From Pontiellaceae bacterium B12219 (GTDB taxonomy: Bacteria; Verrucomicrobiota; Kiritimatiellia; Kiritimatiellales; Pontiellaceae), in assembly GCA_029432795.1 (NCBI GenBank), contig JARNMJ010000004.1, forward strand, positions 62,001 to 126,000: 64,000 nucleotides of DNA. The letters are read 5' to 3'. Numbering within the stretch: position 1 is the first letter of the stretch; the number at the start of each line of letters is the position of its first letter. The notes beneath the pieces are model-generated. The model ran no database searches. It saw nothing but the letters and a program-made list of their open reading frames with translations, and was not told the DNA's origin. Shown here one piece after another: positions 1,099 through 32,754 of the stretch. The position numbers and the translations under genes are program-made.

Positions 1099-1764
1099 CT
1101 ATAAAAGGCCTTTTTTGTGAGCTTTCGAGATCGCGGCGGGTGCGTTTTGCACGCCGAGTTTTTCGTAGATATGCCGAATATGGGTGGCCACGGTGAAATG
1201 GCTGATGTTGAGCTCGCTGGCAATCTGTTTTTTAAGCAGACCCTCTCCGAGCAGTTTGAGCGTTTCCAGTTCCCGTTCAGAGAGCAGGATTTCCACCTCC
1301 TCTTTGGGCAGTCTGGTTCGCAGCGTATTCAGGATAAAGCGGGCCACGGAGGGGTCGAGCGATGATCCGCCATCCACAACCGTTTGAATGCCTTCTTTAA
1401 TCTGTTGAATTGTGGCTGATTTTAATAGGTATCCTTTGGCACCGTGTGAGATGGCCTGAAGGACATCCTCTTCTTTATCGGATTGGGTGAGTGCGATGAC
1501 GGGGCTGTCGGGAACCGCCTTTGAAAAATGGGGAAGGGCTTCAAGGCCGGACATGCCGGGCAGGTTGAGATCGAGCAGAATGATGTCGGGAACGATCCGG
1601 GTCGACATATCCTGAAAACTGCGCAATGCCCGTTCCGCTGTTCCAACCTGGCTGACCAGTTCCATGGTGGGCTCACGTTTGAGTGCAATATCGATGACCC
1701 GTCTGTATTCCGGGTTGTCTTCGACGAGCATGATTTTAATTTTCTGTTTCATAGCAGGTTTCAT
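1099..1764 (-). CDS. NarL/FixJ-type response regulator
   Basis: 221 aa. Residues 10-125 are a receiver domain: acidic pocket E15/D16, phospho-acceptor D65 in DIILLDLNLPG, T93 and K115. Residues 155-215 are a LuxR/GerE helix-turn-helix (LSERELETLKLLGEG...KQIASELNISHFTVATHIRHIYEKLG). It is a DNA-binding transcription regulator. Its ATG overlaps the TGA of the upstream sensor kinase (ATGA), so the two are co-transcribed and are almost certainly partners. It closely resembles the regulator at 26436-27101, which has the same gene order. Its target sites are unknown; the 18-bp palindrome found across this window is a candidate. Confidence 0.93.
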   Translation of the reverse strand: MKPAMKQKIKIMLVEDNPEYRRVIDIALKREPTMELVSQVGTAERALRSFQDMSTRIVPDIILLDLNLPGMSGLEALPHFSKAVPDSPVIALTQSDKEEDVLQAISHGAKGYLLKSATIQQIKEGIQTVVDGGSSLDPSVARFILNTLRTRLPKEEVEILLSERELETLKLLGEGLLKKQIASELNISHFTVATHIRHIYEKLGVQNAPAAISKAHKKGLL

Positions 1765-3713: not shown

Positions 3714-3811
3714 ATCTGTTTATATCATGAACTGTTTCAGCGCCAAAAGCAGAATTGAGAATCTGAATCTTCCAGCCATTGGAAATACTGCCGAATCTGT
3801 AGATATCCGGC

Positions 3812-3829
3812 ATCGCTCAAACGTGCGAT
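3812..3829 (+). promoter_or_regulatory. 18-bp palindromic element (copy 1)
   Basis: ATCGCtcaaacgtGCGAT: perfect 5-bp arms separated by 8 bp, followed by AGGCAaactttt. It lies 99 bp upstream of the sensor kinase (minus) and 97 bp upstream of 3926 (plus). The arms differ from the usual ATCCC/GGGAT but still pair, which suggests dyad recognition by a protein. Confidence 0.65.
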
Positions 3830-3925
3830 AGGCAAACTTTTTATGCGCTGTAAATTGGATGATGAATCGGGAAAGACAGAAGTCGGTCCCCGGGAAGTAA
3901 ATAAAAGGAAACAGGAGGAAACAGA

Positions 3926-5872
3926 ATGAAAAAGAGACTATGGGCATTAAGTGCTTGTCTGATGATCGCGGCGGGCGGTGTACAGGCCGGGACCATTCAG
4001 GAAAATCTGGGATTTCCGGATATGAATGCATTTGTCAGCCAGAAGGATAATGATTCTGCCAATTCGGTTTGGCGAACGGACGATTCGCTCGGGGGGGCGA
4101 TTGGCGGGCAAAGCTTCAAGCTGGATGCCGAGACCACTTTGCGGGCCATCACGTTTCAAAAACAAGGAACTAAAACATTTGCGGAGTCGCCTAGCGAAAT
4201 TCTGCTGTTCGTGGGGGAGTATACCAATGGTGTGATGGCTTCGACCAACCTGATAGAAACCTTTGATGTGAGCGGGTACACCATGACCAACCTGTATTAT
4301 TATTCGCTCAATCTGGATGATGATCTGGTGCTGGATGCCGGAACCTATGCGTATCAGATCTGGTTTAATCAGGCGAGTGAATCACATACGTTAACGATGA
4401 AAGTCGGTGCTTCTTCAACCTATACGAATGGAAACTGGTTCTGGAAAAGCTCCACGACAAATTTCCCGATTCCTTCCTATACAGAGAGTACGGCGGTGGG
4501 GAAGGACTATACCTTTGGACTGCATAATGAGGTCGTAGGCACTATTCCGACGGTGGTTACCCTGAGTTCTGACCAGATTGACATGTCCTTTACATTGGAT
4601 CTGGATGGAACGGCTGGAAATACATCGATCGGTTATTCCACGGTCAGCGGATCAAACGTGGTGGTCTCATCCATTTCGATTAGCGACGAAACGCATGCCG
4701 GTGCTTTCAGCAATCTGACGGTCCTTCCTTTAGTGATGAGCAATGCGCTTCCGGCGACGACTTCGCTGGCCTTTAATTTTGATAACACGGTTGCCGGTTT
4801 GACCAATGGTGAAACGGCCACCGCCACCGCCACCATTGATTGGATGGAAGAGGGCGGCACAAACGGGCAATTTCTGGTAGCACTCTCGGTGACCGCTCGT
4901 GAACCGTTGCCGGCCAGTTCGATCTCCAATACGGGTAGCACGTTCCCAACCAATGATGTTCTGGTTGGCCAGGAGGTATTCGGCGGTAACGGCCAGACGT
5001 ATCTCGCGGGAACCGCGAGCACGAAATTGGGCTCGGGGCAAACGTTTACCTTAGATGGGAATAAATACATCTCGGGGTTCTCGGTCTATGTTACGGCGGG
5101 GAAAACCTTTGATGACGGCACGCATCTGCTGAATGTGTGGCTGGGCGCAGAGGATGGAACAACGGCGGGGGAAACTCTTCACTTATCAAGTATTGACCTT
5201 TCCGGGTACAGTTTTACCCAGGGAAGTTACTACCGCATTGATTTTGCGGAAGAGATATACGCTGAAGCGGGGACTTATGCGTTTCAGATGGCCTGGGCAA
5301 ATGAAGATCCGAACCATGCTATACGGTTCGGTAACTCGACCACCAATGTGTATGACGGTGGTACAGGACTGCGTTTCGGATCGGACGGTGCACTCCCCAA
5401 GAACGGCGGCTCATTTGCCTGGGATCTCGCTTTTGCGATACACGGTGTTGATGGCCCCGAAGGCTACAATGCCTGGTTGCTGAATTATGATCTCGGCGCG
5501 TATACCAATGCGACTGATAATCCGGACGGCGATGCCTATGACAATCTTTATGAATATGCCATGGGCGGCGATCCGACCAACAGCGCAGACATTGGATATA
5601 TGACGCCGCTGAGCTATCAGCTGCTGGAAGACGGAACCACGAACTGGTTTGAGTATGTTTATGCCCGCCGGATTGCAGCTTCCAATGAGCTGGTCTATGC
5701 GCTGGAGATGAGCGACAATCTGGCGATCCCCAACTGGATGCTCGGAACTTATGTCGAACTTCCAACCACTGGAATAATGCCGGAGGATGCGGAGTTCGAA
5801 ACCGTGACCAATCTCGTGGATATGACCGGAAAGAACGTTGAGTTCATCCGGGTGAATGTTGACGAGCTGTAA
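3926..5872 (+). CDS. Secreted modular protein with duplicated domain and C-terminal cassette
   Basis: 648 aa, not assignable to an enzyme family. Signal peptide about 1-21. Two copies of the same module lie at about 28-200 and 330-515, sharing GQ(S/T)F.LD, KTF, (D/V)SGY and L.AGTYA(Y/F)Q..W. Between them (about 210-325) is a beta-sandwich-like segment with FDNTVAGLTNGETATA, also present in the protein at 14008. Near 531-550 is a Ca-binding-type linker, NPDGDAYDNLYEYAMGGDPT, followed by the C-terminal domain shared by many proteins here (LVYALEMSDNLAIPNW...FIRVNV). AGGAGG precedes the ATG. It is divergent from the sensor kinase, and a glycan-binding or surface role is inferred. Confidence 0.85.
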   Translation: MKKRLWALSACLMIAAGGVQAGTIQENLGFPDMNAFVSQKDNDSANSVWRTDDSLGGAIGGQSFKLDAETTLRAITFQKQGTKTFAESPSEILLFVGEYTNGVMASTNLIETFDVSGYTMTNLYYYSLNLDDDLVLDAGTYAYQIWFNQASESHTLTMKVGASSTYTNGNWFWKSSTTNFPIPSYTESTAVGKDYTFGLHNEVVGTIPTVVTLSSDQIDMSFTLDLDGTAGNTSIGYSTVSGSNVVVSSISISDETHAGAFSNLTVLPLVMSNALPATTSLAFNFDNTVAGLTNGETATATATIDWMEEGGTNGQFLVALSVTAREPLPASSISNTGSTFPTNDVLVGQEVFGGNGQTYLAGTASTKLGSGQTFTLDGNKYISGFSVYVTAGKTFDDGTHLLNVWLGAEDGTTAGETLHLSSIDLSGYSFTQGSYYRIDFAEEIYAEAGTYAFQMAWANEDPNHAIRFGNSTTNVYDGGTGLRFGSDGALPKNGGSFAWDLAFAIHGVDGPEGYNAWLLNYDLGAYTNATDNPDGDAYDNLYEYAMGGDPTNSADIGYMTPLSYQLLEDGTTNWFEYVYARRIAASNELVYALEMSDNLAIPNWMLGTYVELPTTGIMPEDAEFETVTNLVDMTGKNVEFIRVNVDEL

Positions 5873-5961: not shown

Positions 5962-6819
5962 ATGAGGAAAATAAGTTATATACTGACGGCCGGTCTGCTG
6001 ATGACTGGCGCTGCGCAGGCTGCTAACATTAATTGGTCAGGCGGCGGCGCTACGGATGATTGGAATGATACGGCTAACTGGGGCGGAGCGGTGCTGGGTA
6101 CCAATACTGCAGACCAGGCCGTCTTTAACGGGGCAGGCGACAGCAATACGCCAACGACTGATTTTGCCTTTGCCGAGGCTTCCAATCTGACAACACGTAA
6201 TGAAGCTCACATCACGATTGGAACCGGTGTGAATATCAGTGGCTTTGGTGCTTGGCGACTTGGGGCGAACAACGCCAATGGCGGTGGCCATATAACAATG
6301 ACCGGAGGGTCGTTGGATGGCGTCAGTCTTCAGGTTGCCAGCAGCCCTACCGCTTCTTCCCGCTCAAGTTTCACGGTTTCGGGCGGCTCACTCACGACCT
6401 CTGGCACATTATCGCTGGGTAGTCTGGCGGATTTTAATTTGACCGGAAATGCCGCTTCTTTTGATGTGGCGTCTTTTACTGCCGGCAACGGAAGCATTTT
6501 CAATGCGACGTATTCTTCCGGTATGAGCACTATTGATGCAGGTTCTGTTAATATCAATGCAGAGGGTGCTCTCTTGAATGTTGATCTCGGTACCTATACA
6601 GGAACCGGGGATTTCGACTTAATCACATTCGATTCTCTGACGAGTGGTTATGCCAGTGGAAACGTAGTGTTCTCCGGTCTTGACGGAGGCCGGACCGCAA
6701 CGCTTGAAAGTGATGCCGACAGTCTGTATGTGCACGTCATCCCGGAACCGGCCACGCTTGGATTGGTTGTCGCTTTGGGCAGCGGTCTGATTGTGGTTCG
6801 CCGTTTTTTCCGGATTTAG
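5962..6819 (+). CDS. PEP-CTERM protein with autotransporter-like beta module
   Basis: 285 aa. Signal peptide about 1-20. The mature start NINWSGGGATDDWNDTANW belongs to an N-terminal module reused at 6926, 7776, 14008 and 17532. The body is rich in G, S, T and N with short beta-strand repeats, as in autotransporter-associated beta-helices. The last 27 residues are a PEP-CTERM sorting signal: VIPEPAT, a hydrophobic helix, then RRFFRI. This predicts processing by an exosortase, which is not in the window. AAGGAG lies 6 nt before the ATG. A strong terminator follows. It is probably an extracellular matrix or surface-layer component. Confidence 0.9.
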   Translation: MRKISYILTAGLLMTGAAQAANINWSGGGATDDWNDTANWGGAVLGTNTADQAVFNGAGDSNTPTTDFAFAEASNLTTRNEAHITIGTGVNISGFGAWRLGANNANGGGHITMTGGSLDGVSLQVASSPTASSRSSFTVSGGSLTTSGTLSLGSLADFNLTGNAASFDVASFTAGNGSIFNATYSSGMSTIDAGSVNINAEGALLNVDLGTYTGTGDFDLITFDSLTSGYASGNVVFSGLDGGRTATLESDADSLYVHVIPEPATLGLVVALGSGLIVVRRFFRI

Positions 6820-6867: not shown

Positions 6868-6925
6868 GATCAGCTTGGCAGATTATCCAACCTGATTAGA
6901 TATTTTGCAAATTAAGAGGGGCAAA

Positions 6926-7750
6926 ATGAGGGCCGTCCACAACGCAGGAGTTCTATTCAGTCTAGTGTTCTTCATGATCGGGACGTTGCAGGCCGCGACG
7001 GTTCATTGGACGGGCGGGTCGGCTTCCAATGATTGGAACGATGCGGCGAATTGGAGTTCAGCGACCGTTCCGGGGTTCTCGGAAGCGGATGACGTATTAT
7101 TTGTGGATGCCGGCGACAGCACCACGTTAGTGACTGCTTTTTCCTTTAAAAATGCATCTTCGATTAAGCTGCGGGGAGATCCTTCCGTAACATTGAGTGC
7201 CGACCTGGCTGGCGTAAGTGAGCTTTATCTGGGAGGAAATGCGAACCTGAATGGCGGTTTCATTCATCAGACCGCCGGGAAACTGTCTTTGGTTTCATTG
7301 CGGATTGGAAGTCTGGAAACAGCCACATCGGAATCGGTTTACACCCTTACCGGCGGCCGAATTCTGAATTCCGGAAATCTATATGTGAATAAGGGCATGT
7401 TTCTGCTGAAGGGTAATTCGGCCATGGTTTCTACCGTTTCGTTATCCGTTACCGATATCGGAACCCTGGCATTTACACTGGATTCAAACGGGGTTCAGGC
7501 CATTGAGGTGAAGAATCGATTCGATATTTCTGAAAAGGCCCGGCTTATAGTTGATGCCTCAGCGCTGGAAACCGGAGAAGGCGTTTTTGAATTAGTGAAA
7601 TTCAGTAATCTTTTTCAGGAGTTTAATCCCGAAAATATAACGATTACCGGTCTGAAATCCGGCTTGATCGGAACCATTGCCTATGAAAAGAACCGCATGA
7701 TGCTGATGATTGAACAGGGGCAGAGCGGGCTGGGTCTACTGACGTATTAA
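6926..7750 (+). CDS. Secreted protein with autotransporter-like N-terminal module
   Basis: About 274 aa. I chose the ATG at 6926, preceded by AAGAGGGG, over an in-frame TTG at 6905; it gives a clean signal peptide (MRAVHNAGVLFSLVFFMIGTLQA). The mature protein begins ATVHWTGGSASNDWNDAANW and continues as a beta-rich, Asn/Ser/Thr-rich module to the end (about 24-265). It has neither PEP-CTERM nor the shared C-terminal domain, so it is essentially the bare N-terminal module also found in 7776, 14008 and 17532. It could be a structural subunit or a truncated relative of those enzymes. Its DNA at 7019-7056 is identical to 14092-14129. Confidence 0.85.
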   Translation: MRAVHNAGVLFSLVFFMIGTLQAATVHWTGGSASNDWNDAANWSSATVPGFSEADDVLFVDAGDSTTLVTAFSFKNASSIKLRGDPSVTLSADLAGVSELYLGGNANLNGGFIHQTAGKLSLVSLRIGSLETATSESVYTLTGGRILNSGNLYVNKGMFLLKGNSAMVSTVSLSVTDIGTLAFTLDSNGVQAIEVKNRFDISEKARLIVDASALETGEGVFELVKFSNLFQEFNPENITITGLKSGLIGTIAYEKNRMMLMIEQGQSGLGLLTY

Positions 7751-7775: not shown

Positions 7776-10700
7776 ATGGGAATCGGAAGCGCATCAGGGA
7801 TTATATCAAGTCTGTCACTTTTAATGTCCGCGACCGTGCAGGCGGCCACCATTCATTGGACGGGCGGCGCTGCTTCCAATGATTGGAATGCAGCCGCGAA
7901 TTGGAGTACGGCCGAGGTGCCGGGCGCCACGACGGACGATTCTGCGATCTTTGCCGGTTCTGCCGACAGCACAACCCTGGCAATGCCTTTTTCATTTGCA
8001 AATGCGTCGTCGATTACGGTGCGGGACGATGCGGTTGTTACACTCAACGCGAATCTTTCAGGAATTAATCAGTTCTATCTGGCTCCGAATGCGAATGTTG
8101 CCGGCGGGACGGTGGTTCAACAATCCGGAACCGTATCGGCTCAGACGGTCAAGGTGGGCAATTCCAATACAGCGCTCTCGGAATCGTGGTATACGGCAGC
8201 CGGCGGGACGCTGAGCGTTTCCGGCGAATTGTATGTGAACAAAGGGACCTTTTCTCTCGTGGGTTCATCCGCAACGGTAACCGCAGATGCTTTGAAACTG
8301 ACGAATACCGGCGGACTGGATTTCAAGCTGGGGGCTTCGGGGGTGATTCCGATTCAGGTCGCCAACCAATTGACGATTGGTGCGGAGTCCACGTTGACGA
8401 TCGATGGTTCCGCATATGCCGGAAACGGAGGAACCAATGTTCTGGTGCAGTTTGGATCGTTCAGCGGGATATTTGATCCCGCAAATATAGTTATTGATGG
8501 AATGGATGGCGCATCGATCAGTTATGAGGACGACAGCATGAATCTGGTGATTCCTGATCACGTTGCAACGAACGTCGTCTTTTCCTCCTCCACCAATTGG
8601 TCGTCGGCTGTGATTCATCCGAGCGATGATGTCGTCGTTGATTCGGGCGCGACCGTGACGGTGGGTACAGATGGAGCGGCCAATTCGCTGCTGCTCAACG
8701 GGACCTTGAAATTTGAACTGGATACGGTGGGGGATTCCTCGTTGACGCTGAACACACTGACATTCGGGGCAGGTTGGGCCATTGAGGTGGATGGCTCCGG
8801 ATACGAAGGCATGGATCTCTATTTTCCAATTATTCTGGCAACCGGATTGCCGACCAGTTTAACGAATACCGTGACATTTTATGGATTTGGCGAGCGCGAG
8901 CCCGCTTTGGTGGCTCAGGATGACGGGCTTTGGTTGCGTCTGATTGCACCGCCGTCGCTTTCAGTACGGCTTTGTTCGTTGGTGCCGGAAAGTACGGTGG
9001 CAACCGATTATTCGAATAGCGTGTTTGCGGCGACACGGGCACTCAAACCGACGGGATCGGCCTGGCAGCCCTCGTTCAACGAGGCGCATGTGATGGATAC
9101 GACGCTGTCGCAGGCCATGCTGGGCAGCGAAAACCACTCGTGGGATTTAACGGTGGGGCGTGCCGGGCAGATTGCTTCGTTCCGGGTTCCAACCATTGGA
9201 GAAATCATTCCGCCGCAGTGGCAGCATAAAAGCTGGCCCGGCGGCTCCGATCGTTCGCCCTGGATTGATGAAGTATGGCAAGGGGTGGCTGTGCGTACGC
9301 CGGCTGCAAATAGCTGGTACATCCATCAGGGCGGCACCTATCTGTTTGATCCGATTCAAACGGAGCCCTTTTATTCGCCGCAGCTTGCGGCTGAACTGGA
9401 TGCAGAGAATCACAGCTTTACGACCATCAACTGGGGGCAGCAGGCGCACACATCCATTTTTACCGATGACGATCCAACCAATGATTACCAATCGTATGTG
9501 CTCTACTTTACCCGGGTGCGGGACTTGGGGCAGGGGCTGATCGAAGTATCGTTGGGTTTTTACAATTACGGGCACGATCATGTTGATCATTTTAATATGC
9601 CATGGGGCGGGATCCGTTTGACCAACCTCCGGGAATATTTCCTGTCAAAGCCCGATGGAACCTGGGCGCTTGCGACTGATGGCTGGGATGGGGACGAAGA
9701 CCGGTATAAAGATTATGACGAGGCCGGCGGTTGGGTCGCTTTCTGCAATTCGACCAATGCCGCAACCCCTGCGCTGGGGTTAGTGTATGGCAATGATCCC
9801 GAACCGCTATTGTCCAAGCAGACCCGCAAAAGTTACATGTGGTGGAAGCAGACGGTGACGGACTATGAGGCCGATGAAACGGCGTCTCGAAACTACGGGG
9901 TGTTTGCCACGATTCGAAAATATACCCTGAATCAGGGCCATGGCATTTGGGGACGCTACTATTTTGTGCTGGGTGATGATGTCGCCGATGTGGAAACGCG
10001 CATTGAGGAACGCCAACTCCTGGCCGATGAATCCATCGTTCTGTTCAACTACACAGAGTCGAATTCCCCGTTGGTGGGATATCGGTTTTCGGGAAGCGGG
10101 TCCGGGTTCCGGATCGAAGAAAACGGCCTCTCGCCCGACTTTTTCCTGTATGCCCATCCAGTCACTGGAAGCTTTCCGATTTATGAGATTATCGAGGATG
10201 ATAAATCCCGTTACCTAACGTGGAACCCCTATGCGACCGGCGTGATTAAAACGTACGACGGAACTATCGCGGGCATGCGTCTGCTGGGATTTGCGCTTCC
10301 GTCGGGCGAGGTTGCGGGCAGTCCGTATGCCTATGAATCGCTGGATACTATCATGGCCGCCGCTCCCGGAAACTATCTTCCGTCCGGCGAAACCCTGTCG
10401 GTCCGAACAGCCACGGCTCAGGAAGCCTGGCGCATTGATCATTTCGGATTTGCGGACAATACCGGCGACTTTGCAGACACGGCGAACCCCGATGCCGATG
10501 CTCTCAACAATCTGGGCGAATATGCTTTCGGCGGTGACCCGACCAACGCCCTCGATATCGGCTATCTTCCAAAGGTTGGAAGCGGAACGAATGGATTTGA
10601 ATATGTGTATGCGCGGCGTACAACGCCCGGTCATGGGCTGACCTATACGGTGGAAAACAGTTCCAACCTGCTTTCCAATGATTGGAAAACGGCCGCCGTC

Positions 10701-10820
10701 GTTGAGCTTCCAAATCCTGGAACGCTGGATGCCGATTTTGAAGCCGTCACCAACCGGGTGGATACTGCCGTCAAGAGCAATGCGTTTTTCCGGGTAAAGG
10801 TTGATCGTGAAAATAAGTAA
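7776..10820 (+). CDS. Giant secreted mosaic protein with unrecognised central domain
   Basis: 1014 aa. Signal peptide 1-23; N-terminal beta module 24-265 (ATIHWTGGAASNDWNAAANW); a second beta-rich repeat at about 265-375. Residues about 390-880 form one large domain I do not recognise, rich in Trp, Tyr, His and Asp (for example SWPGGSDRSPWIDEVWQG, FYNYGHDHVDHFNMPWGG, RNYGVFATIRKY). Such size and aromatic content suit a carbohydrate-active enzyme. A linker (NPDADALNNLGEYAFGGDPT, about 900-920) and the shared C-terminal domain (LTYTVENSSNLLSNDWK...FFRVKV) follow. The ATG follows AAGAGGA, 25 bp after the preceding gene, so it is in the same operon. Confidence 0.85.
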   Translation: MGIGSASGIISSLSLLMSATVQAATIHWTGGAASNDWNAAANWSTAEVPGATTDDSAIFAGSADSTTLAMPFSFANASSITVRDDAVVTLNANLSGINQFYLAPNANVAGGTVVQQSGTVSAQTVKVGNSNTALSESWYTAAGGTLSVSGELYVNKGTFSLVGSSATVTADALKLTNTGGLDFKLGASGVIPIQVANQLTIGAESTLTIDGSAYAGNGGTNVLVQFGSFSGIFDPANIVIDGMDGASISYEDDSMNLVIPDHVATNVVFSSSTNWSSAVIHPSDDVVVDSGATVTVGTDGAANSLLLNGTLKFELDTVGDSSLTLNTLTFGAGWAIEVDGSGYEGMDLYFPIILATGLPTSLTNTVTFYGFGEREPALVAQDDGLWLRLIAPPSLSVRLCSLVPESTVATDYSNSVFAATRALKPTGSAWQPSFNEAHVMDTTLSQAMLGSENHSWDLTVGRAGQIASFRVPTIGEIIPPQWQHKSWPGGSDRSPWIDEVWQGVAVRTPAANSWYIHQGGTYLFDPIQTEPFYSPQLAAELDAENHSFTTINWGQQAHTSIFTDDDPTNDYQSYVLYFTRVRDLGQGLIEVSLGFYNYGHDHVDHFNMPWGGIRLTNLREYFLSKPDGTWALATDGWDGDEDRYKDYDEAGGWVAFCNSTNAATPALGLVYGNDPEPLLSKQTRKSYMWWKQTVTDYEADETASRNYGVFATIRKYTLNQGHGIWGRYYFVLGDDVADVETRIEERQLLADESIVLFNYTESNSPLVGYRFSGSGSGFRIEENGLSPDFFLYAHPVTGSFPIYEIIEDDKSRYLTWNPYATGVIKTYDGTIAGMRLLGFALPSGEVAGSPYAYESLDTIMAAAPGNYLPSGETLSVRTATAQEAWRIDHFGFADNTGDFADTANPDADALNNLGEYAFGGDPTNALDIGYLPKVGSGTNGFEYVYARRTTPGHGLTYTVENSSNLLSNDWKTAAVVELPNPGTLDADFEAVTNRVDTAVKSNAFFRVKVDRENK

Positions 10821-14007: not shown

Positions 14008-17000
14008 ATGAATATAAACCGATATACATTGAGTACGTGTTTGTTGATGACACTCGGAACGCAGGCGGCGACGATTAGCTGGGTCGGCGGATCGGCTTCC
14101 AATGATTGGAACGATGCGGCGAATTGGAGCTCGGCCTACCTGCCCGGCGCGACGGAAGCGGACACCGTTCTGTTTGTCGGAACGGACGATAACACAACAT
14201 TGGTGACGCCGTTCACTTTTACGAATGCTTCATCGATCAACCTGCGGAGTGATGGCGGACCAACGGTAACGCTTAATGCCGATTTGTCAGGCGTGAACAC
14301 GTTATATCTCGCGGGGAACAGCGGCCATGACGGCGGAACGATCAACCAGCTTGGCGGGACCCTTTCCACAGTCTCTGTGAGAGTCGGGAGCAGCAGCGGG
14401 GCGACGACGGAATCGTTTTATACGATGACGGGCGGTCGCCTTGCGAACTCCGGTGATCTGGTGGTGAATAAAGGATCCTTTACGCTGTCCGGCTCATCCG
14501 CTGCGGTGGAAACTGATGCGCTGACGGTGACGAGCATTGGAACCCTTTCTTTTGTATTGGGTTCAGACGGCGTGACGCCGATCAGTGTGACCAATGCATT
14601 TACCATTAATGATTCAACCTCCAGGCTGACGATTGACGCCTCGGCGTACACCGCAACCAATTCGACAATTGAATTGCTGCAGTTCGGTTCGTTGAACGGC
14701 AGTTTTGCGGCGAGTGAAATCACGGTTACCGGACTGCGTCCGGATCAGGAACCGGCCTCGATTTTTTATGACGACAACCGCATGACCCTGGAACTGGCCA
14801 AGCCGGACCCCAACTGGGCGGCGATGCTGGCGTTGGGCGATCTGACCAATGCGCCGGCGATCTATGATATTTACGGTACCTCGACCACGTGGAGTGCGGT
14901 GGCCGCGGCGGCAACAGGAGCGGTTCAGGCAATTTATTATGACGGGCTGGATTATCTGGGAAATCCGACGCGGGTCTTTGCGTATGTGAAACTGCCTGCG
15001 AATGCGAGCGCGGCCAATCCGGTGCCGGGCGTTGTGCTGGTGCACGGCGGCGGCGGTACGGCCTATCCGGATTGGGTCGAAAAATGGGCCGACCGCGGTT
15101 ATGCGGCGATCGCGATGGATAATGAAGGCGATGCGTTTGATCCCCAGGGCAATGAAATCGACAGTCCGTATCCGGGGCCGCACCGCACCGGAATTTATAA
15201 GGACTCGGAGCCGGAGAATTTAAAGCCGCTGGATGAGCAGTGGGAATATCATGCAACCGCTACGGTTATTCTGGCGAACTCCTTGCTGCGCGCCATGTCC
15301 GAAGTGGATGCGGATAAGGTCGGGGTGACCGGCGTGTCGTGGGGCGGCGTTTTAACCAGTACAGCCATTGGAATTGATGACCGCTTTGCTTTCGCCGTTC
15401 CGGTTTACGGCTGCGGCCGATTGTTCGATGTGGGCAATCAATATGGGGCCGCGCTGGGCGATAATGTTTTTTATCAGACGATTCTGGATCCGATTCTCCG
15501 GATGGATCGGGCAACGATGCCGCAGCTCTGGTGTTCCTGGCCGGGAGAGAATAATTTCTCGCTCGACTCTCAGGCGGCAACCTATCTGGCGGGCACGAAT
15601 GCCGAACATTCCGTCGCGCTGGTTCCGGGCATGGGACACGGACATGGAGCATCGTACAATCGACCGGAACCCTACGATTTTGCAGATCATGTTTTAGCGA
15701 CCGGAACCCTATGGGGGAAACAGGAAAGCCTGAGCCGGATTGGCGATGCCGTTGAAGTGGTCTTTGCGTCGACCAAGCCGCTCTATAACGCCACGCTGAT
15801 TTATACGACCGGAACGGGCTATACGGGCGATCTCGACTGGCCGGAAATGCCGGCGGATTCCCTCGTGGATAATGCGGATGGAACCTGGACGGTGCAGGCC
15901 ACGCTGCCGACGAACACCACGGCGTGGTTTGTGAATGTGAATGCATTGGGGTCGGATGTGGATGACCTTTATAACTATAAAGATGTAAACCTCTATATGA
16001 GTTCGGATTATCAGGAAGTGATTAACGTTACGTTGAGTCCTGATATCGGATTCGAGATGTCGCATCCGATTACGCTCAATCAGTCAACGGGAATGCTTCA
16101 GGTGGATTGTACGGTCCCCACAAATCTGGAGATTGTGGAAATACGCGCCGCCGACGAATCGCATCCCGGATCGCTGACCTATCCGGGGGCGTACCCGGTT
16201 GTGCTGGTTGATGGTGGTTTGCTGAGTTTGGAGTTCGACAATACGGTGGCCGGTCTGGCTTCCGGAGAAACGGCAACGGGAATGGTCCAGGTGGTGTGGG
16301 AAAATATGGATGGTTCCACCGACGTGGCGGAACTCCCGTTCACCGTAACGGCCCGGGCGGCGCAGACGGTTGTTTATGACGCCACCACAAACTGGACATC
16401 AAAAACCGTGTATGAAATCGATGATGTTTTTATTCAAAGCAATGCAACGGTGACATTGGATCAGGAAGCCGTCGCAGGGACTCTGAGGATCAGCGACGGG
16501 CATCTGCTGATGGATCAGAATTATACGCTCACGCTGGCGGACAGCCTGACCGTTGAAACCAATGGTTCTCTTTCTGTGCTGGATGGGGAGCTGGACTTTA
16601 ACGGCGGTTCCTTTGTGGTGGATGGTTCGGTCATCATTGATGGCGGAACCGCGAATGTGGAAACGCTGGCATTATCCGGAACCGGCAGCCTGCTGGTAAA
16701 ATCGGGTGCGCTGAATTTTAACAGCGGCAGCACGTTGGATATCAGCCTGCTGGAAATCAGCGGCGGCAGTGTTGATTTCGGCAGCGGTTCGGCTTATGTG
16801 GGAGACAATGGCTCCACGGAGCTTCGAGTCGTGGGGGACACGGCGTCCATTTCGATGAATATCCTGAATCTTCAGCCTTGGACGTCGACGGATCCGACTC
16901 TGCGCTTTGTACTGAACGAAACCGGAGTGTCCACGATTCAGGTTTCCAGCTTTATGAATCTGCCGCAGGCGGCAATCATTGTGGATGGCTCGGCTTATAC

Positions 17001-17496
17001 CGGCGGGGCTGGAAATTTTGTGCTGATCGATTCGGCGAATCTGGCCACGCTCGGCGATACGAATAAGTTTTCCGCAACCGGTTTCGAGGCTATGGGGTTA
17101 AATGCGGTCGTGGTGCAGGATCAGACGAATGGAAAGGACTGGGTGGAACTGGTTCTGACCGAAACGGCCTACGGAAGCTGGGTTCGTGGGTTTAATCTGA
17201 GCGGTGCCGACTTGAGGATGACGGCCAATCCGGACGGGGATGCCTACTCCAACGGAGAGGAATTCATCGCCGGTCTGAACCCCGGTGTATTTGACGCCTT
17301 TGAAATCCAATCCTTCTCGAACGGCGATACGCTGGAGTGGGACGCCGTCAGCGGACGACTTTACAACGTCTATTGGGCGAGCAACCTGGTCGATGGATTT
17401 ACGTTGATTGGGAGCAATGTGGTGGACGGCATATATACGGATTCCGAATCCAATGCGCAGGGCTTCTATAAAATCACCGTGGAATTGGCGCCTTAA
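14008..17496 (+). CDS. Giant secreted mosaic alpha/beta-hydrolase (putative esterase)
   Basis: 1162 aa. Signal peptide and N-terminal beta module (ATISWVGGSASNDWNDAANW) to about 260. The alpha/beta-hydrolase domain (about 285-575) has an oxyanion region PGVVLVHGGGGTAYPDW, nucleophile elbow GVSWGG (S444) and a late His in GMGHGHG, as in acetyl-xylan-esterase or dipeptidyl-peptidase-like hydrolases. Next is a module with LEFDNTVAGLASGETATG (about 745-800, shared with 3926), then a second long beta-helix-like region (about 800-1040). The linker NPDGDAYSNGEEFIAGLNP and the shared C-terminal domain (LYNVYWASNLVDGF...FYKITVE) end it. Deacylation of a glycan is inferred. AAAGGA lies upstream. Confidence 0.87.
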   Translation: MNINRYTLSTCLLMTLGTQAATISWVGGSASNDWNDAANWSSAYLPGATEADTVLFVGTDDNTTLVTPFTFTNASSINLRSDGGPTVTLNADLSGVNTLYLAGNSGHDGGTINQLGGTLSTVSVRVGSSSGATTESFYTMTGGRLANSGDLVVNKGSFTLSGSSAAVETDALTVTSIGTLSFVLGSDGVTPISVTNAFTINDSTSRLTIDASAYTATNSTIELLQFGSLNGSFAASEITVTGLRPDQEPASIFYDDNRMTLELAKPDPNWAAMLALGDLTNAPAIYDIYGTSTTWSAVAAAATGAVQAIYYDGLDYLGNPTRVFAYVKLPANASAANPVPGVVLVHGGGGTAYPDWVEKWADRGYAAIAMDNEGDAFDPQGNEIDSPYPGPHRTGIYKDSEPENLKPLDEQWEYHATATVILANSLLRAMSEVDADKVGVTGVSWGGVLTSTAIGIDDRFAFAVPVYGCGRLFDVGNQYGAALGDNVFYQTILDPILRMDRATMPQLWCSWPGENNFSLDSQAATYLAGTNAEHSVALVPGMGHGHGASYNRPEPYDFADHVLATGTLWGKQESLSRIGDAVEVVFASTKPLYNATLIYTTGTGYTGDLDWPEMPADSLVDNADGTWTVQATLPTNTTAWFVNVNALGSDVDDLYNYKDVNLYMSSDYQEVINVTLSPDIGFEMSHPITLNQSTGMLQVDCTVPTNLEIVEIRAADESHPGSLTYPGAYPVVLVDGGLLSLEFDNTVAGLASGETATGMVQVVWENMDGSTDVAELPFTVTARAAQTVVYDATTNWTSKTVYEIDDVFIQSNATVTLDQEAVAGTLRISDGHLLMDQNYTLTLADSLTVETNGSLSVLDGELDFNGGSFVVDGSVIIDGGTANVETLALSGTGSLLVKSGALNFNSGSTLDISLLEISGGSVDFGSGSAYVGDNGSTELRVVGDTASISMNILNLQPWTSTDPTLRFVLNETGVSTIQVSSFMNLPQAAIIVDGSAYTGGAGNFVLIDSANLATLGDTNKFSATGFEAMGLNAVVVQDQTNGKDWVELVLTETAYGSWVRGFNLSGADLRMTANPDGDAYSNGEEFIAGLNPGVFDAFEIQSFSNGDTLEWDAVSGRLYNVYWASNLVDGFTLIGSNVVDGIYTDSESNAQGFYKITVELAP

Positions 17497-17531
17497 CCCT
17501 TACCCGGTTGAACGAATTAAAGAGGAGCAGG

Positions 17532-20528
17532 ATGAAAACGAGCCTTATTTTACCCGGCGTCTTCCTGATGGTTGGTTCGCTGCAGGCGGCCAGTTTAGAT
17601 TGGGATAATGGAGCGGTGACCAATGTCGGTTGGCATACCGCAACGAACTGGGCGGGCGATATCCTGCCGGGGAGTACAACCAATCATAGTGTGATTCTGA
17701 ACGGACCGGCGGATGCGCCGTATGTGGTGCAGGACATCAGTCCCGCGAATTCCTTTGATATCACACTGCGCAATGAGGCCGAGCTGACGATTGAGGCGGA
17801 TCTGTTGAACGTGGATGCTTTTTATCTGGGGCCCAATGCCGGCAATGGCGGCGGCACAGTGGTTCACAACAACGGTACTGTTGCTGCAAAACAGATCAAC
17901 GTGGGCGCCAGCGCAACGGCCCTTTCGGATTCGGTTTACACCCTGAGCGGGGAGGGCGCGGTGTTCACGAGCGCGGATCTATCGGTGAGCCGGGGAACCT
18001 TCCGGGTGGATGGCGCTGAAGCGGTTGTTTCGGTTGGCAATAACCTGAATTTATCAGCCGGGGGAAAGCTGGTCTTCGAACTGGGAGAATATGCTCCGGC
18101 GCAGTTTGATGTCGCGGGCACCTTGAGCGTGAATGCGGCGGAATCGGTGCTGACGGTGGACGGCTCGTTTTATCGCGGGGGAAGCGGCCGGTTTGAATTG
18201 ATTCGGTTTAGCGGAATAAGCGGCTCTTTTGCGGCCACGAATGTGGTGATCAAGGGATTTAAAGCGAATCAGTCGGCGTCCATTGCGGTTGATACGGACA
18301 GTCTTGATTTAATTGTTACGACCGACGCGGTGGCCGATGTGGATGGGCAGCTGTGGTTTTCTGTGACGCCGAATGCCGGAACGCCTTCAGCAGTTTCTTC
18401 GGATCTGCAACTGAATAATGGGCATCATGCGTCCACCTTGGCATCGTCAGATCTGACCTGTGTTCAGACGCGTGACGGGAATGATTTGATTTATACCGTG
18501 GGATGGAGCGGCAACGATTTTGATGCGGATGGAACGGCGGATACGCTGACCTTTGATCTCCGTGTGACGGGGTATGCCGGAACCTCCTTTATCTACAGCA
18601 CGGATGCGGGCGGCTCATCAATTTCGGCTCTGGGCAGCGCGGGGTTGGCGACGGTCAGTGATGGCCGGTGGGGCGTGGGGGCTGATGCCGATCTGGATGA
18701 AGGAGAAAGCCTGCTGGTTCGCGTGGAGAATGTTCAGTTTTCAGTGCCGGGTTTTGCGGCGTCGGGCTATGGGTTTACGAAGTTTGGCTTGAATGAAATT
18801 TCGGGCTATAACCATGCGCATATTCGTGGAGAAGGCATTGGATCCAACCTGGATTCCGGCGTCATCAATTATCCGACGGACTATGAATTTTCATCCCTGA
18901 ATCCATTGATGGTTACGTGTGCAGGCAATGGGTCGGGTGCGGGATTTCAAGTGGATGCCATTGAATTTAATCTGACGTTTAATGATCCGGAACAGGAACC
19001 GGTTTGGGACGTTTCAGACTATTCGTATATGAAGGATGGAATCGGTTTCGTGGAGCCCTATCCCGAGCAGAAACCGGGTGTTGAGTTTCCGGAATTTTCC
19101 TGGGATCAAGTGCCGCTGTGGTTGGCAGTGCGTAATCTCAGCGCATACAGCGAAGAGCAGATCAGTACGATCGCGACCAACTATCAGTTGGTGATGCTGG
19201 AAAAGAGCAATAAAAACGGGCTCACTTACACCGAAGCGGGACAGCTCAAAATGGCGGCCGATCTCAAGGCGGTTTCGCCCGATATCAAAGTGATTACTTA
19301 TTGGAATTCGGGACTGCACTATACCGATTTTGAGGCCGACTTAACCTACGACCTTGAGAATTGGAGCCGGCAGGAGGTGGACAGCGATGGGGCTGTTACA
19401 TACGCACTGCAGCGGGGTACGCAGTATAAGTATGATTTTTCAATTGAGGCCATGCGGGACTGGTGGGTGAATGTTGCGCTGACGATGGCCTCCAATGAGA
19501 ATGTTGACGGCGTGTTTATTGATGTTCCTGCGGTGGAGAATACGCACTTTTATGATGAGAATGGCGTGCCGACAGAGGACCGCGCAATCATGCTGGATGC
19601 CCTTCGGTCTGCAATGCCTGCCAATAAAATGCTGGTTGGAAACAGTTTGCGGAGTGAACATCTTAATGGCGGACGGCAGTTGATGGAGTGTTTCGACGGC
19701 TCCTATCTGGAGCGCTGGGATATGTGGGATCGGGAGAGCCTGATCGATCAGACCGAAGGCGATGTGATTGTCAATTCCATCCAGCTGATGCGCGAAGCTC
19801 TCGCGCTTGGAAAAATGATTAATCTGCAGTCGGGGCCTGAGGGACCGGGTATTGACGAGGATCCCGCGCCGACGGGCTCTTCCAACATGGCGACGCGCCG
19901 GGCCTATGCCGAAAAATATGTCGATTTCCCATTGGCGGTCTTCCTCATCGTCGCAGAAACCAACGCGTATTTTGGCTACAACATGGGCGTGAACGCAATT
20001 GAAGAGAGTTATAACGATGATGTTTGGGATGCGAGTTACATCACTGCGTTAAACCGCCCGCTGGGTGCGCCGCTGGGCGACCCTGTCCGGAATGGATATA
20101 TCTATACCCGTTCCTATGAGCACGTCGATGTGTGGGTGGATGTGGATTCCAAGGAAACGGTGTTTGCATGGGACAGCGCCGATACCGATGCCGATGGTCT
20201 GAATGATTTGTGGGAATATCGTAATTTCGGGAATGTAACGAATGCCATTCCGTCGGATAATCCGGACTTTGATGCCTACAGCAATGAAGAAGAATATATC
20301 GCAGGGCTTAATCCCAACGTATTCGATACCTTTGAAATCCATTCCTTTACGAACGGTGATACGCTGGAGTGGGACGCCGTCAGCGGCCGCCTTTACACGG
20401 TGTATTGGGCGAGCAATCTGGTGGATGGATTCTCCTTGATCGAAAGTAATCTGATGAACGGTGTTTATGTGGTTCCTGAAACCGATGAGCAGGGCTTCTA
20501 TAAAATTACGGTCGAGTTAGAGCCGTAA
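17532..20528 (+). CDS. Giant secreted mosaic protein, putative TIM-barrel glycoside hydrolase
   Basis: About 998 aa from the ATG at 17532 (AGAGGAG just upstream; an in-frame TTG at 17508 is rejected). Signal peptide, then a divergent N-terminal beta module (SLDWDNGAVTNVGWHTATNW). Residues about 280-485 are a beta-sandwich shared with 37660 (FDADGTADTLTFDLRVTGY). Residues about 490-870 resemble putative barrel glycosidases of the GHL type: VPLWLAVRNLSAYSEEQI, DIKVITYWNSG, NVDGVFIDVPAVEN, GNSLRSEHLNG, and ECFDGSYLERW. D/E in VFIDVP and ECFDG are catalytic candidates. The linker and a C-terminal domain nearly identical to that of 14008 follow. Confidence 0.85.
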   Translation: MKTSLILPGVFLMVGSLQAASLDWDNGAVTNVGWHTATNWAGDILPGSTTNHSVILNGPADAPYVVQDISPANSFDITLRNEAELTIEADLLNVDAFYLGPNAGNGGGTVVHNNGTVAAKQINVGASATALSDSVYTLSGEGAVFTSADLSVSRGTFRVDGAEAVVSVGNNLNLSAGGKLVFELGEYAPAQFDVAGTLSVNAAESVLTVDGSFYRGGSGRFELIRFSGISGSFAATNVVIKGFKANQSASIAVDTDSLDLIVTTDAVADVDGQLWFSVTPNAGTPSAVSSDLQLNNGHHASTLASSDLTCVQTRDGNDLIYTVGWSGNDFDADGTADTLTFDLRVTGYAGTSFIYSTDAGGSSISALGSAGLATVSDGRWGVGADADLDEGESLLVRVENVQFSVPGFAASGYGFTKFGLNEISGYNHAHIRGEGIGSNLDSGVINYPTDYEFSSLNPLMVTCAGNGSGAGFQVDAIEFNLTFNDPEQEPVWDVSDYSYMKDGIGFVEPYPEQKPGVEFPEFSWDQVPLWLAVRNLSAYSEEQISTIATNYQLVMLEKSNKNGLTYTEAGQLKMAADLKAVSPDIKVITYWNSGLHYTDFEADLTYDLENWSRQEVDSDGAVTYALQRGTQYKYDFSIEAMRDWWVNVALTMASNENVDGVFIDVPAVENTHFYDENGVPTEDRAIMLDALRSAMPANKMLVGNSLRSEHLNGGRQLMECFDGSYLERWDMWDRESLIDQTEGDVIVNSIQLMREALALGKMINLQSGPEGPGIDEDPAPTGSSNMATRRAYAEKYVDFPLAVFLIVAETNAYFGYNMGVNAIEESYNDDVWDASYITALNRPLGAPLGDPVRNGYIYTRSYEHVDVWVDVDSKETVFAWDSADTDADGLNDLWEYRNFGNVTNAIPSDNPDFDAYSNEEEYIAGLNPNVFDTFEIHSFTNGDTLEWDAVSGRLYTVYWASNLVDGFSLIESNLMNGVYVVPETDEQGFYKITVELEP

Positions 20529-26435: not shown

Positions 26436-27101
26436 TTAGTGCTTATGTTTAAAAAGACCGAGGGTATGGGCTTTGTCGATGGCGGACGGGGCATTGGCCA
26501 CATTGAGCTTCTGGTAGATGTGGCCGGTGTGAGTTACGACGGTATAGACGCTGATGCCCAGCATTTCTCCGATCTCTTTTTTTAAATGGCCCTTGGCAAC
26601 CAGGGTGAGGATCTCCATTTCGCGGTCGGAAAGGGCAGGGAGCGTTTCTTCTTTCTGAGGGGGAGCTTTCAGTGTGGCCAGAATATGTTTTGCCACACCG
26701 GCATCAATCGGTGCTCCGCCTTCCATTACGGTTTTGATGCCGTCAGTGATGGTTTTTACCGTTGAAGATTTTAAGAGGTAGCCCGTTGCTCCGAGTGTGA
26801 TGGCTTTCAGCACATCCCCTTCCTGGTTGGATTGAGAGAGGATGATGATTTTGGCGTCCGGGACGGTTGATGCAAAATAGGGGATTGCATCGAGTCCGGA
26901 CATGCCGGGGAGATTCAGGTCGAGCAGGATAATATCCGGCTCTATACGGGTAGACATATCCTGCAGGCTTCGCAGCGCGCGTTCCGCCGTGCCGAATTCA
27001 CTGACCAGTTCAATGCCGGACGCTTTTTGCAGGGCGATTTCGATGACCTCGCGGTACTCGGGATGGTCTTCAACCATCATGACTCGTATGTTTTTTTTCA
27101 T
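26436..27101 (-). CDS. NarL/FixJ-type response regulator (second copy)
   Basis: 221 aa. Receiver domain with acidic ED (about 11-12) and phospho-acceptor Asp in PDIILLDLNLPGMSGLDAIPYF, conserved S/T and K, then a LuxR-type helix-turn-helix (LSDREMEILTLVAKGHLKKEIGEMLGISVYTVVTHTGHIYQKL). It is a close paralogue of the regulator at 1099-1764; the recognition helices differ (ISVYTVVTHTG against ISHFTVATHIR), so DNA targets may overlap but need not be identical. Its ATG overlaps the stop of the sensor-kinase gene by 4 bp, as in the first copy. Confidence 0.93.
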   Translation of the reverse strand: MKKNIRVMMVEDHPEYREVIEIALQKASGIELVSEFGTAERALRSLQDMSTRIEPDIILLDLNLPGMSGLDAIPYFASTVPDAKIIILSQSNQEGDVLKAITLGATGYLLKSSTVKTITDGIKTVMEGGAPIDAGVAKHILATLKAPPQKEETLPALSDREMEILTLVAKGHLKKEIGEMLGISVYTVVTHTGHIYQKLNVANAPSAIDKAHTLGLFKHKH

Positions 27102-29210: not shown

Positions 29211-29307
29211 AGGCAGGGGCTAGGAAGAAGATACGCTGAAAGCAGAAATGGGAGAAGGCACGCATCTGATTACTTTCCTTCCTATTGGTACTAAAGAGGA
29301 TGAAACC

Positions 29308-32300
29308 ATGAAGATTTTACGAAATGCCGTAAGCATGATCCTGTTCGGAACAGGTGTCGCCGCAATCTGTGCGGTGGCGGATGTGATGAATGTGCAGATT
29401 CAAGCTGTTGCAAATACAAACTATGGAACCGACACGGTTGCGATCCTGTATTCACCGGTTCAGAGCTATGGACCGGCAACCTTTCGGGTCGCGATCAGGG
29501 TGGACCCCATGGCGGGAACGTCGATCACGAGCGGGTCTTCCGGTGAGTGGGGCATTAATTCAGGTGAAGCTAACAACGGATGGTGGCCCTCTTTTGATGG
29601 AAGTTTGACGCAGTCAGTGGACTCCGTTTCAAATATAGAGATTGTTGATTTCAATGCGAATGGAAGCGGTCTGACCGTCACAGATATTACAAATCGATCC
29701 TTCAAATCCGTCATGATCGTTAATGGGCAGCATGCCGCAGACAGAGTCAGGATTACAGCAGGCGGCGTGACGAACGACGCAGTCGGGATCAAAATGCTTA
29801 GCAGTCCCGCAACAAATGATCTTCAAACGCTTTCGGGGTCGGCTTCGGTAAGCAGTTTCACCATCGCGAACGGTACCACAGCCGCTAATAATCGATGGTC
29901 GGTCAGCGGTATTGAGGTAGAGTTAGACATATCCGGAGCCATAACCAACCCGGTGGTCACGCGCGCCGACTGGATGCGGGGGACATGGGGGCTCAGCTGG
30001 GCTCCCGAAGATATGTATAACGGTCGCAGTGAAACGCTGGTTGATGACTATGACGCGTTTCTCGATCAGATCAGCGGACTGAAAACAATCGACTATATTC
30101 AGCTGAACCTGGGGATGTCCTACATTTATTCCCCGGTGCATCTGGGGCCGCACGCGTTGCTGGAAAGTTTTTGGCAGGGCGACACGGACGAGGAAGGAAA
30201 GCCCATTAACCTGGTGGTGCCCCGCGCTTCGTCCGGAATTGATCCGCTCGGCGAGTGGGCGTTGGCAACGAAAGCGGCCGGTCTGAAGGTTCAAGTGTAT
30301 GTAAATAGCTCCCAGATGCTGCAGCGGGGCGACATTCCCAATCCAGCCGTCATTCCGAATATTACGGAGCGTTGGAAAACCTGGTGCGACACCAATACAG
30401 CCGCGCAGGCGTTTATTGCGAGTCAGCCCTATCACACCAATGGCATCGATGAAAACCGCCCCTATATGTTCTGCTATGCGGAGTTCATCCTGAAGGACTA
30501 TTCCCTGCGCTATGGGGAGCTGATTGATTCATACATTTTTGATTCGGGCAGTTTTATGAGTTCCAACGGCGATAATGCAACGAATGGCGTGGCGGAGGAT
30601 CAGCGGATTTATCAGGCGTTTGCGGATGCCGCGCGCGCGGGTAATCCCAATGCAACGGTTTCGTTTAACAACGGCCCCGAGCGGGATACAGAAGAGCTGA
30701 ATCCGTTTTCGGAAGCGGTGCACGCCGAAGACTATATGTTTGGTCATCCCTACAACGGCGGGAATAATATAGGAAGCCATACCATCGGGAATCCGCCGCT
30801 TTACGACCGAAATTATGCGCACATTCAAAAAATGACCGAAACCGGCGGCAATGTGCATGCGGGCGAACTGACGCACGATTGGACGTGGGATGACCGTATT
30901 GTGGGCCATTTTTATCCGCCGATGAGTACCACCGCCTGGAATGCGGGCAGCACGCCGGCGCTGACCGATGAAGAGTTCCTGCTCTGGAATCTGGAAGCGA
31001 TGCAGGCCGGCGGTGCGATCTCCTGGGGCGCTCCGCTGAACTGGCCGAATGGAAGCGGTGCGAATCTGCTGATCAATGATTGGGGGATTACGCAGCTGAT
31101 GCTGATGGATGCGCATTTAAGCACCAACGAAGAGCCCGGAGCTCCGCAATGGGTGCGGCAGCATACCCCGCTGCCGGAGGCGGCCATCGGGCAGGCGTAT
31201 TACCGTGTGCTGACCGAAGGCGTCGATTTCTGGGATCCCGAAGGCAATGCCATAACCAACGTGGCATTTACTTCCGTTGCAGATGGAGTGCCGTCCTGGC
31301 TGACGTTGGAGAAAGAGCCGGGAAATCCAGAAAGCTGGCGGTTGGTCGGCATTCCGGTAGAGACCGCCGCCACAAATTATACCTTCAGGCTGCGGGTTGA
31401 AGATTCGTCCGGTGGCACGGATCGGTGGGTTCAACTGGCGGTAAACGATGCGCTTCCATTCCCGGCGGGGCCAGCAGGGTTCCCCGTCTGGGCCGCAGAT
31501 CCGTTGGTCATTCCGGATGCAGCGGTTAATGAAGCCTACACGAATACATTGATCCAGGGGTTGAATTTCCAGGATCTGGAAGAAAGCAATCTGGTTGTAT
31601 CCAAAACAGGCGGAGCCGCCTGGCTTTCGCTGACCGAAACTGTTCCGGGATGGTGGCAGTTGACGGGGGTTCCTGCGCCGACGGATGCCGGAGTGAATTC
31701 GGTGGTGTTGAGCGTGAGTGACGGAACGCATGCAACAGCGTGCACGCTCGTATTAACCGTTGAACCGGCGGTTGCCCATGCATCGGTTCTGGCTTCCGCC
31801 AATACCGATTACGGAACCAATGCCGTCGCCACTATGGTTTCCGAAGTTCAAACGGCTTACGACGGACTGGCTGCATTTCAGTTTTCCGTCGACGTGCTTC
31901 CTGGGACTGGAACCGCCATCCGGAGCGGCGATGGCGGCGGGGCGACGACCTCCCGCAGCTGGGGGATCGAATCTTCCGGCGAGACGAGTAATGCGCGATA
32001 CATTTTCAATGGGGATGCCGGGGAATTTGTAGAACACATCGGAAATATACAGATCATCAATTTTAATGATGGCGGCGGCAGTCTGTCCGTTGGCGATATT
32101 CGGGATGTATCCTTCTCATCCATAACGATTGCCGATGCCCAATCCGGCGGCAAGGATTCGCTGTATGTCACAGTAGGTTCGGTCACCAATGATCTGGGTG
32201 ATCTGGGCAGCAATGATCAGTCGATCAACCTTGAGACGTTATCGAATATTGTTGCTCCGGTAACCGAATTTTCACTTGGAACCAGCACAACCAATGCATT

Positions 32301-32754
32301 GAATAAATGGTCGGTCAACAGCATCGAAGTGAAGTATTCCATTGTGGGGCCGGAGACCTATTCAACCTGGGCATACGATTACGGGCTGGACAGGGCTGAT
32401 GGAGCTCCCTTGGCTGATAGCAGCGATCTCGATGGTTACGCCAATCTGGCGGAATTTGCGCTCGGCATGGACCCGACGCAACCGGATGCCGGTTCCAAGG
32501 ATTGGAACAGGATGGAGTCCGACGGCGGAACGAACTATTTTAATTACGTCCATAACCGCCGGACGGATTATGCGCAGCAGGGTTTGTCTTATCTGCTGAT
32601 CGATACCACGAATTTAGTGGAGTCGGTTGCCAACACAAATGCACCGGTTCAGGTGTTTGTCGGTCCATCCGTTGATGGATACGAGCCGGTCACGAATCGT
32701 TATGTAACCGATGAATCGGCGCAATTTATTCAATTAAATATTCAACAGGAATAA
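29308..32754 (+). CDS. Giant secreted mosaic protein, putative glycoside hydrolase
   Basis: About 1148 aa; the ATG at 29308 follows AAAGAGGA and gives a good signal peptide. Residues about 25-215 are a module with FNANGSGL and NNRWSVSGIEV, repeated near 820-1010. Residues about 215-600 look like a barrel-type enzyme: RGTWGLSWAPEDMYNG, TIDYIQLNLGMSYIYSP, GLKVQVYVNSSQM, ELIDSYIFDSGSFM, and SEAVHAEDYMFGHP, with Asp/Glu candidates in YIFDSG and HAED. I cannot name its family. Two putative-Ig (cadherin-like) repeats follow at about 625-815, then a DLDGYANLAEFALGMDPT linker and a divergent shared C-terminal domain. Glycan hydrolysis is inferred from architecture and context. Confidence 0.85.
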   Translation: MKILRNAVSMILFGTGVAAICAVADVMNVQIQAVANTNYGTDTVAILYSPVQSYGPATFRVAIRVDPMAGTSITSGSSGEWGINSGEANNGWWPSFDGSLTQSVDSVSNIEIVDFNANGSGLTVTDITNRSFKSVMIVNGQHAADRVRITAGGVTNDAVGIKMLSSPATNDLQTLSGSASVSSFTIANGTTAANNRWSVSGIEVELDISGAITNPVVTRADWMRGTWGLSWAPEDMYNGRSETLVDDYDAFLDQISGLKTIDYIQLNLGMSYIYSPVHLGPHALLESFWQGDTDEEGKPINLVVPRASSGIDPLGEWALATKAAGLKVQVYVNSSQMLQRGDIPNPAVIPNITERWKTWCDTNTAAQAFIASQPYHTNGIDENRPYMFCYAEFILKDYSLRYGELIDSYIFDSGSFMSSNGDNATNGVAEDQRIYQAFADAARAGNPNATVSFNNGPERDTEELNPFSEAVHAEDYMFGHPYNGGNNIGSHTIGNPPLYDRNYAHIQKMTETGGNVHAGELTHDWTWDDRIVGHFYPPMSTTAWNAGSTPALTDEEFLLWNLEAMQAGGAISWGAPLNWPNGSGANLLINDWGITQLMLMDAHLSTNEEPGAPQWVRQHTPLPEAAIGQAYYRVLTEGVDFWDPEGNAITNVAFTSVADGVPSWLTLEKEPGNPESWRLVGIPVETAATNYTFRLRVEDSSGGTDRWVQLAVNDALPFPAGPAGFPVWAADPLVIPDAAVNEAYTNTLIQGLNFQDLEESNLVVSKTGGAAWLSLTETVPGWWQLTGVPAPTDAGVNSVVLSVSDGTHATACTLVLTVEPAVAHASVLASANTDYGTNAVATMVSEVQTAYDGLAAFQFSVDVLPGTGTAIRSGDGGGATTSRSWGIESSGETSNARYIFNGDAGEFVEHIGNIQIINFNDGGGSLSVGDIRDVSFSSITIADAQSGGKDSLYVTVGSVTNDLGDLGSNDQSINLETLSNIVAPVTEFSLGTSTTNALNKWSVNSIEVKYSIVGPETYSTWAYDYGLDRADGAPLADSSDLDGYANLAEFALGMDPTQPDAGSKDWNRMESDGGTNYFNYVHNRRTDYAQQGLSYLLIDTTNLVESVANTNAPVQVFVGPSVDGYEPVTNRYVTDESAQFIQLNIQQE

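Follow-up and report, generated by a model that had tools for sequence, protein, structure and literature searches.

The stretch of DNA analyzed here (hereafter, the window) comprises 64,000 nucleotides of Pontiellaceae bacterium B12219 (contig JARNMJ010000004.1), and its list of open reading frames contains an ORF at 7776..10820 of the forward strand that encodes a protein of 1014 amino acids, called 7776 after its start. From the ORF list and domain homologies, 7776 is a GH174 protein, predicted to be secreted, with five parts on the plus strand: namely, a putative Sec signal peptide (residues 1–24, ending in SATVQA/AT; 7776..7847), proposed by reading the sequence itself rather than by a predictor; an N-terminal beta-solenoid module (residues 25–280, the end being approximate; 7848..8615), recognized by homology and an AlphaFold2 model and common to the proteins 5962, 6905, 14008, and 17508; a second beta-rich linker module (residues ~281–388; 8616..8939); the GH174 catalytic domain (residues 389–881; 8940..10420), assigned by sequence, profile, Foldseek, and structural alignment; and a C-terminal module (residues 883–1014; 10422..10817), homologous to parts of 3926 and 29248 and of the module proteins in relatives. 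The linker module precedes GH174 in relatives too, as judged from alignment, blast, and the model; it aligns with L002, L006, and L012, and the blast alignments to L019 and L021 start at residue ~286. A preliminary description of this DNA had proposed a separate central domain at about residues 390–880, and a folded domain with homology bounds of 389–881 indeed lies there: window position 8940 corresponds to residue 389 and position 10420 to residues 881–882, and homology starts and stops at the same points (389–859 in the GH174 profile alignment and 389–881 in the blast alignments). Also, the domain had been described as rich in Trp, Tyr, His, and Asp; these residues make up 18.0% of it versus 11.8% of the N-terminal part, a value reached by 14 of 2000 residue shuffles, and the enrichment is thus mild but real, with similar values (16–19%) in the neighboring sister enzyme domains.

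The surroundings of 7776 are a large island for the degradation of fucoidan or sulfated fucan. Immediately upstream on the plus strand, two stand-alone proteins of the N-terminal module are encoded at 5962..6819, with a PEP-CTERM-like tail (IPEPATLGLVVALGSGLIVVRRFF), and at 6905..7750, both recognized by homology. Downstream on the same strand, 14008 (14008..17496) has an acetyl-xylan-esterase-like domain at residues ~275–670 by Pfam and homology, behind the N-terminal module (14071–14799), and 17508 (17508..20528) has a GH168 endo-1,3-fucanase homologue at residues 526–888, again behind the N-terminal module (17595–18332); the latter domain matches the PDB sequences 9joc (E=3.1e-38) and 8ya6 (E=2e-20). 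Pfam labels this domain as GHL15, "hypothetical," and it is the solved relatives that identify it as a GH168 endo-fucanase homologue; at least seven GHL15/GH168 domains are present in the source genome. Furthermore, 29248 (29248..32754, plus strand) has a GH107 endo-fucoidanase domain at residues 238–840 (6dlh, E=1.6e-165). The placement of the 7776 domain had been likened to that of the enzymes in sister proteins, which holds for 14008 and 17508 with their N-terminal module of the same kind; 29248, in contrast, carries an enzyme but lacks the N-terminal module and has just the C-terminal module in common with 7776. The island also encodes three GH29 proteins (20649, 40871, and 45785), two GH95 proteins (22471 and 53346), a GH141-like beta-helix protein (56114), seven sulfatases (10920, 24885, 32788, 35996, 44213, 48197, and 50041), and esterases (14008, 43131, 47187, and 52145).

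Two histidine-kinase/response-regulator pairs (1761/1099, with 1099 assigned by homology, and 27098/26436) occupy 1099–3713 and 26436–29194 and flank the GH174–GH168 stretch; the kinases have weak F5/8-type-C-like sensor regions, and homologues of them, at 63% and 52%, respectively, occur close to GH174 in L018 and in the Akkermansiaceae locus L019. We also noticed a 648-aa protein at 3926–5872, which has no Pfam family and shares the C-terminal module with 7776; its homologue with 66% identity adjoins the kinase in L018.

The preliminary description had found no familiar family motif in the central domain, which was fair: no Pfam-A or NCBIfam family matched the whole protein at E<=1, and no Pfam family matched the 389–881 domain alone at E<=10. 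GH174 joined the CAZy families in 2023 and has no Pfam or NCBIfam model; the silence of those libraries is ascribed to a gap in them and not to novelty. When the PDB sequences were searched with phmmer, only two chains, both of them endo-1,3-fucanases, matched the domain well: 8jd7 at E=1.8e-42 along ~395 residues and 9k1g at E=2.3e-39. A profile made from 17 homologues taken from related genomes (alignment A1) hit the same chains at E=5.5e-112 and 1.8e-80, respectively, and no other chain scored better than E=0.6. The AlphaFold2 model of the domain built from A1 (pLDDT 85.3, pTM 0.90) led Foldseek again to 8jd7 ("endo-1,3-fucanase GH174A," 1.0e-36) and 9k1g ("FUN174Sb from GH174 family with fucotetraose," 1.1e-32), the third-best match being a mutarotase at 3.2e-07, and a second structural aligner gave Z scores of 41.3 for 8jd7 (450 residues), 39.5 for 9k1g (411 residues), and 18.7 for the next chain. 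The HMM search and the AlphaFold/Foldseek comparison, both of which had been proposed as checks, returned GH174 enzymes, and the clear match to a known non-enzymatic domain that had been named as the refuting outcome did not appear.

The fold of the domain model is an all-beta, mutarotase-like beta-supersandwich. Mutarotases reach Z of 15–17.5 with 4–10% identity and gave no sequence match in the PDB search; as judged from the predicted model, the likeness to mutarotase/aldose 1-epimerase appears to be one of common architecture rather than of membership. An identity as lyase or mutarotase was rejected, such folds reaching just Z of 15–18 with 4–12% identity. Nor does the domain belong with the other endo-fucanases of the island: no GH168 chain was found in the PDB sequence matches to E=10, and the confident model is all-beta rather than the (beta/alpha)8 barrel of GH168, an unrelated and distinct family with the same reported reaction type (Fun168A 8ya6; 9joc). 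No GH107 chain was found to E=10 either, while the neighbor 29248 matched one at 1.6e-165; GH107 endo-fucoidanases (MfFcnA 6dlh) share the island and the overall role with 7776 but have an unrelated fold and mostly another linkage preference. Sequence similarity of this sort is what defines CAZy families. In sequence, fold, and active-site residues, residues 389–881 of 7776 are a clear homologue of GH174 endo-1,3-fucanases, and the expectation of an enzyme that acts on glycans, with accessory modules on either side, is borne out, while that of a new or unrecognized kind of enzyme is not. We accordingly give almost no credence to a genuinely new family of glycan-active enzymes, for which the empty Pfam and NCBIfam searches would speak, against the clear homology to two GH174 enzymes of solved structure, in sequence as well as in fold.

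We take 8jd7 to be Fun174A, the founding GH174 endo-1,3-fucanase, from Wenyingzhuangia aestuarii OF219, given its label "GH174A" and a constant residue offset. The active site of Fun174A is listed as D119, E120, and E218 in a 2025 review (PMC11943901, Table 3). In 8jd7, the same three residues have the positions 121, 122, and 220, an offset of 2 throughout, and align with D498, E499, and E590 of 7776; all three acidic residues are hence intact. D498–E499 lie in an SPWIDEVWQ motif (9267..9272, plus strand) and E590 at 9543..9545 (plus strand), and both are kept in 9k1g. Many other aromatic and acidic positions are also kept in the alignment with GH174. The D/E pair is almost invariant and is kept in 15 of the 17 A1 rows, which were found without the motif pattern; its conservation in 61 loci of the genome contigs is partly circular, the scan pattern having contained D/E, and is not counted as independent evidence. 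The count for E590 is unbiased by the scan pattern: of the 82 aligned rows, some of which are duplicates, 78 have Glu here. Three Bacteroidota rows (L023 at 1456–4494, L024, and L036) have Gln at the position of Fun174A E218, for which an altered mechanism or lost catalysis is possible. Pseudo-enzymes occur in many families of glycoside hydrolases, and the 7776 domain is accompanied by further modules, as might be expected of a GH174-derived binding domain that is catalytically dead; such a domain is nonetheless very improbable here, given that D498, E499, and E590 are intact, that the domain is full-length with a confident fold, and that the source genome keeps five GH174 copies, none of which has internal stops.

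Relatives of the domain were collected from genome contigs by an alignment-based scan, which gave the 61 loci; a single-sequence scan gave none, because its peptide patterns fell mostly in unconserved stretches. GH174 is present in 10 of 240 genomes of the class of the source genome, and a literature search, which most GH174 papers lay beyond, found no report of GH174 in its lineage. The source genome shares its genus with Pontiella sulfatireligans F21 (L041, the G021 copy) and Pontiellaceae bacterium B12227 (L018, the G016 copy). In a maximum-likelihood tree of 71 domains, the 7776 domain falls in a clade of nine with support of 100/100, together with two further copies from the source genome and sequences from two Pontiellaceae relatives and from one bin each of Akkermansiaceae, Lentisphaeria, and Verrucomicrobia. 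Both 8jd7 and 9k1g are placed outside this clade, the latter grouping with the Spartobacteria/Terrimicrobiaceae sequences L055, L056, and L063. The clade is marked by a loop after H558 (residues ~558–573; 9447..9494, plus strand), which is partly of low pLDDT in the model; it is 21 residues long in all nine members but 13 in 57 of the 69 others outside the sister group, and exceeds the loop of either solved structure by 8 residues. Conversely, the C-terminal loop has 11 residues in the clade versus 34 in most others. While similar to 7776 over the entire domain, Fun174A differs in possessing a C-terminal insertion of ~25 residues and lacking the 8-residue insertion, and Fun174Sb (9k1g) also lacks the latter. 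Identity of the 7776 domain to the solved GH174 enzymes is ~25–29% (~25–27% for Fun174Sb). Taken together, the low identity, the separate clade, its own insertion, and the missing C-terminal insertion indicate that the substrate and the linkage may differ.

Relatives provide functional links to other activities that are independent of the island. In the Lentisphaeria bin (L020, 2401–10110), a single ORF of 2570 aa joins a GH174 domain of the same clade to an esterase of the 14008 type (45% identity to the 14008 domain), a fusion that suggests, as far as gene architecture can tell, an acetylated substrate. In L023 (1456–4494), one ORF of 1013 aa joins GH174 and a GH29 fucosidase; L022 and L064 have GH174 near GH29 and sulfatases, and L064 additionally near a 14008-type esterase. 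Among 58 related genomes, with shared ancestry and genome size uncontrolled, GH168 is present in 5/7 genomes with GH174 versus 3/51 others (Fisher p 2e-4), and GH107 in 4/7 versus 1/51 (Fisher p 4e-4).

A true GH174 homologue might belong to a clade that has shifted to another bond or substrate, such as alpha-1,4 bonds, brown-algal fucoidan with other sulfation or with acetylation, or a different sulfated glycan that contains fucose. The well-supported separate clade, the insertion in 9/9 members combined with the absence of the C-terminal one, the Gln replacing E218 in sister Bacteroidota rows, and the neighboring esterase and the esterase fusion with their hint at acetylation would all be consistent with such a shift, and linkage switching has been reported inside GH168 (PMC10778895). 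Retention of the three reported active-site residues and of many aromatic and acidic positions argues the other way, and we consider the shift possible but on the unlikely side.

The N-terminal module of 7776 is predicted to be an all-beta solenoid (AlphaFold2 pLDDT 88.6). Foldseek with this module gave nothing at E<=0.001, and its best match, the autotransporter Ssp at E=0.023, supports the beta-solenoid alone. In a genome search (window ORFs and L120–L129), the full-length module was found in 20 ORFs across three Pontiellaceae genomes; its partners are GH168 in 11, GH174 in one (7776), an esterase in two, and repeated beta-type units in three, while three are stand-alone proteins, two of which have PEP-CTERM-like tails. 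One of the 11 GH168 domains is weak and was confirmed through Pfam GHL15. The flanking modules had been called targeting modules, which stands as a lead, endo-fucanase domains being present in 12 of the 20 ORFs, with binding itself putative; the N-terminal module is a candidate fucan-targeting or surface module. Both the N- and C-terminal modules of 7776 come from families other than the beta-sandwich CBM reported with Fun174A (PMC11943901). Three ORFs considered as unknown enzymes (L121:157–2706, L124:921–3524, and L123:4824–6698) were rejected as such, since they consist of one or two repeated beta-type units of ~210 residues that are not obviously catalytic; these units have no Pfam match, nor in L124 a match among PDB sequences, and from their sequences are possible carbohydrate-binding units. 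A bolder proposal would combine both themes: that the clade of nine sequences (Pontiellaceae, Akkermansiaceae, Lentisphaeria, and other Verrucomicrobia) owes a new specificity to the 8-residue insertion, for instance one for brown-algal fucoidan that is acetylated or carries another sulfation pattern, and that the N-terminal module is a new fucan-specific module for binding or surface display in GH174, GH168, and esterase proteins. As a whole, we regard this proposal as doubtful.

We are confident, then, in reading residues 389–881 as an endo-acting GH174 domain of an exported, module-tethered protein working beside the other island enzymes, which most likely hydrolyzes alpha-1,3 bonds between (sulfated) L-fucose residues through D498, E499, and E590; we infer the endo-mode and the linkage by analogy with Fun174A and Fun174Sb, and the sulfation pattern accepted would likewise be a matter of analogy. 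In this scheme, 7776 would be exported via the putative signal peptide, and the N-terminal beta-solenoid and the C-terminal module would probably keep it at the substrate or the cell surface. The GH174 domain would cleave sulfated fucan or fucoidan at alpha-1,3 bonds within the chain, giving oligosaccharides that would be passed on to the sulfatases, esterases, and GH29/GH95 fucosidases, with the GH168 and GH107 endo-fucanases of the island acting alongside. Fucoidan had rightly been named among substrates to be tried. The substrate may be of brown-algal or echinoderm origin: Fun174A did not act significantly on fucoidans from brown algae (PMC10778895), and characterized GH174 enzymes act on the fucans of sea cucumbers, on which those named in the review were assayed (PMC11943901).

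In conclusion, a false "new enzyme family" is replaced by a testable assignment to GH174. One N-terminal module is paired repeatedly with two unrelated families of endo-fucanase, which makes it a concrete candidate for fucan targeting. Brown-algal fucoidan is a slowly degraded carbon store, and a divergent clade within a fucoidan island could reveal whether GH174 also attacks it.
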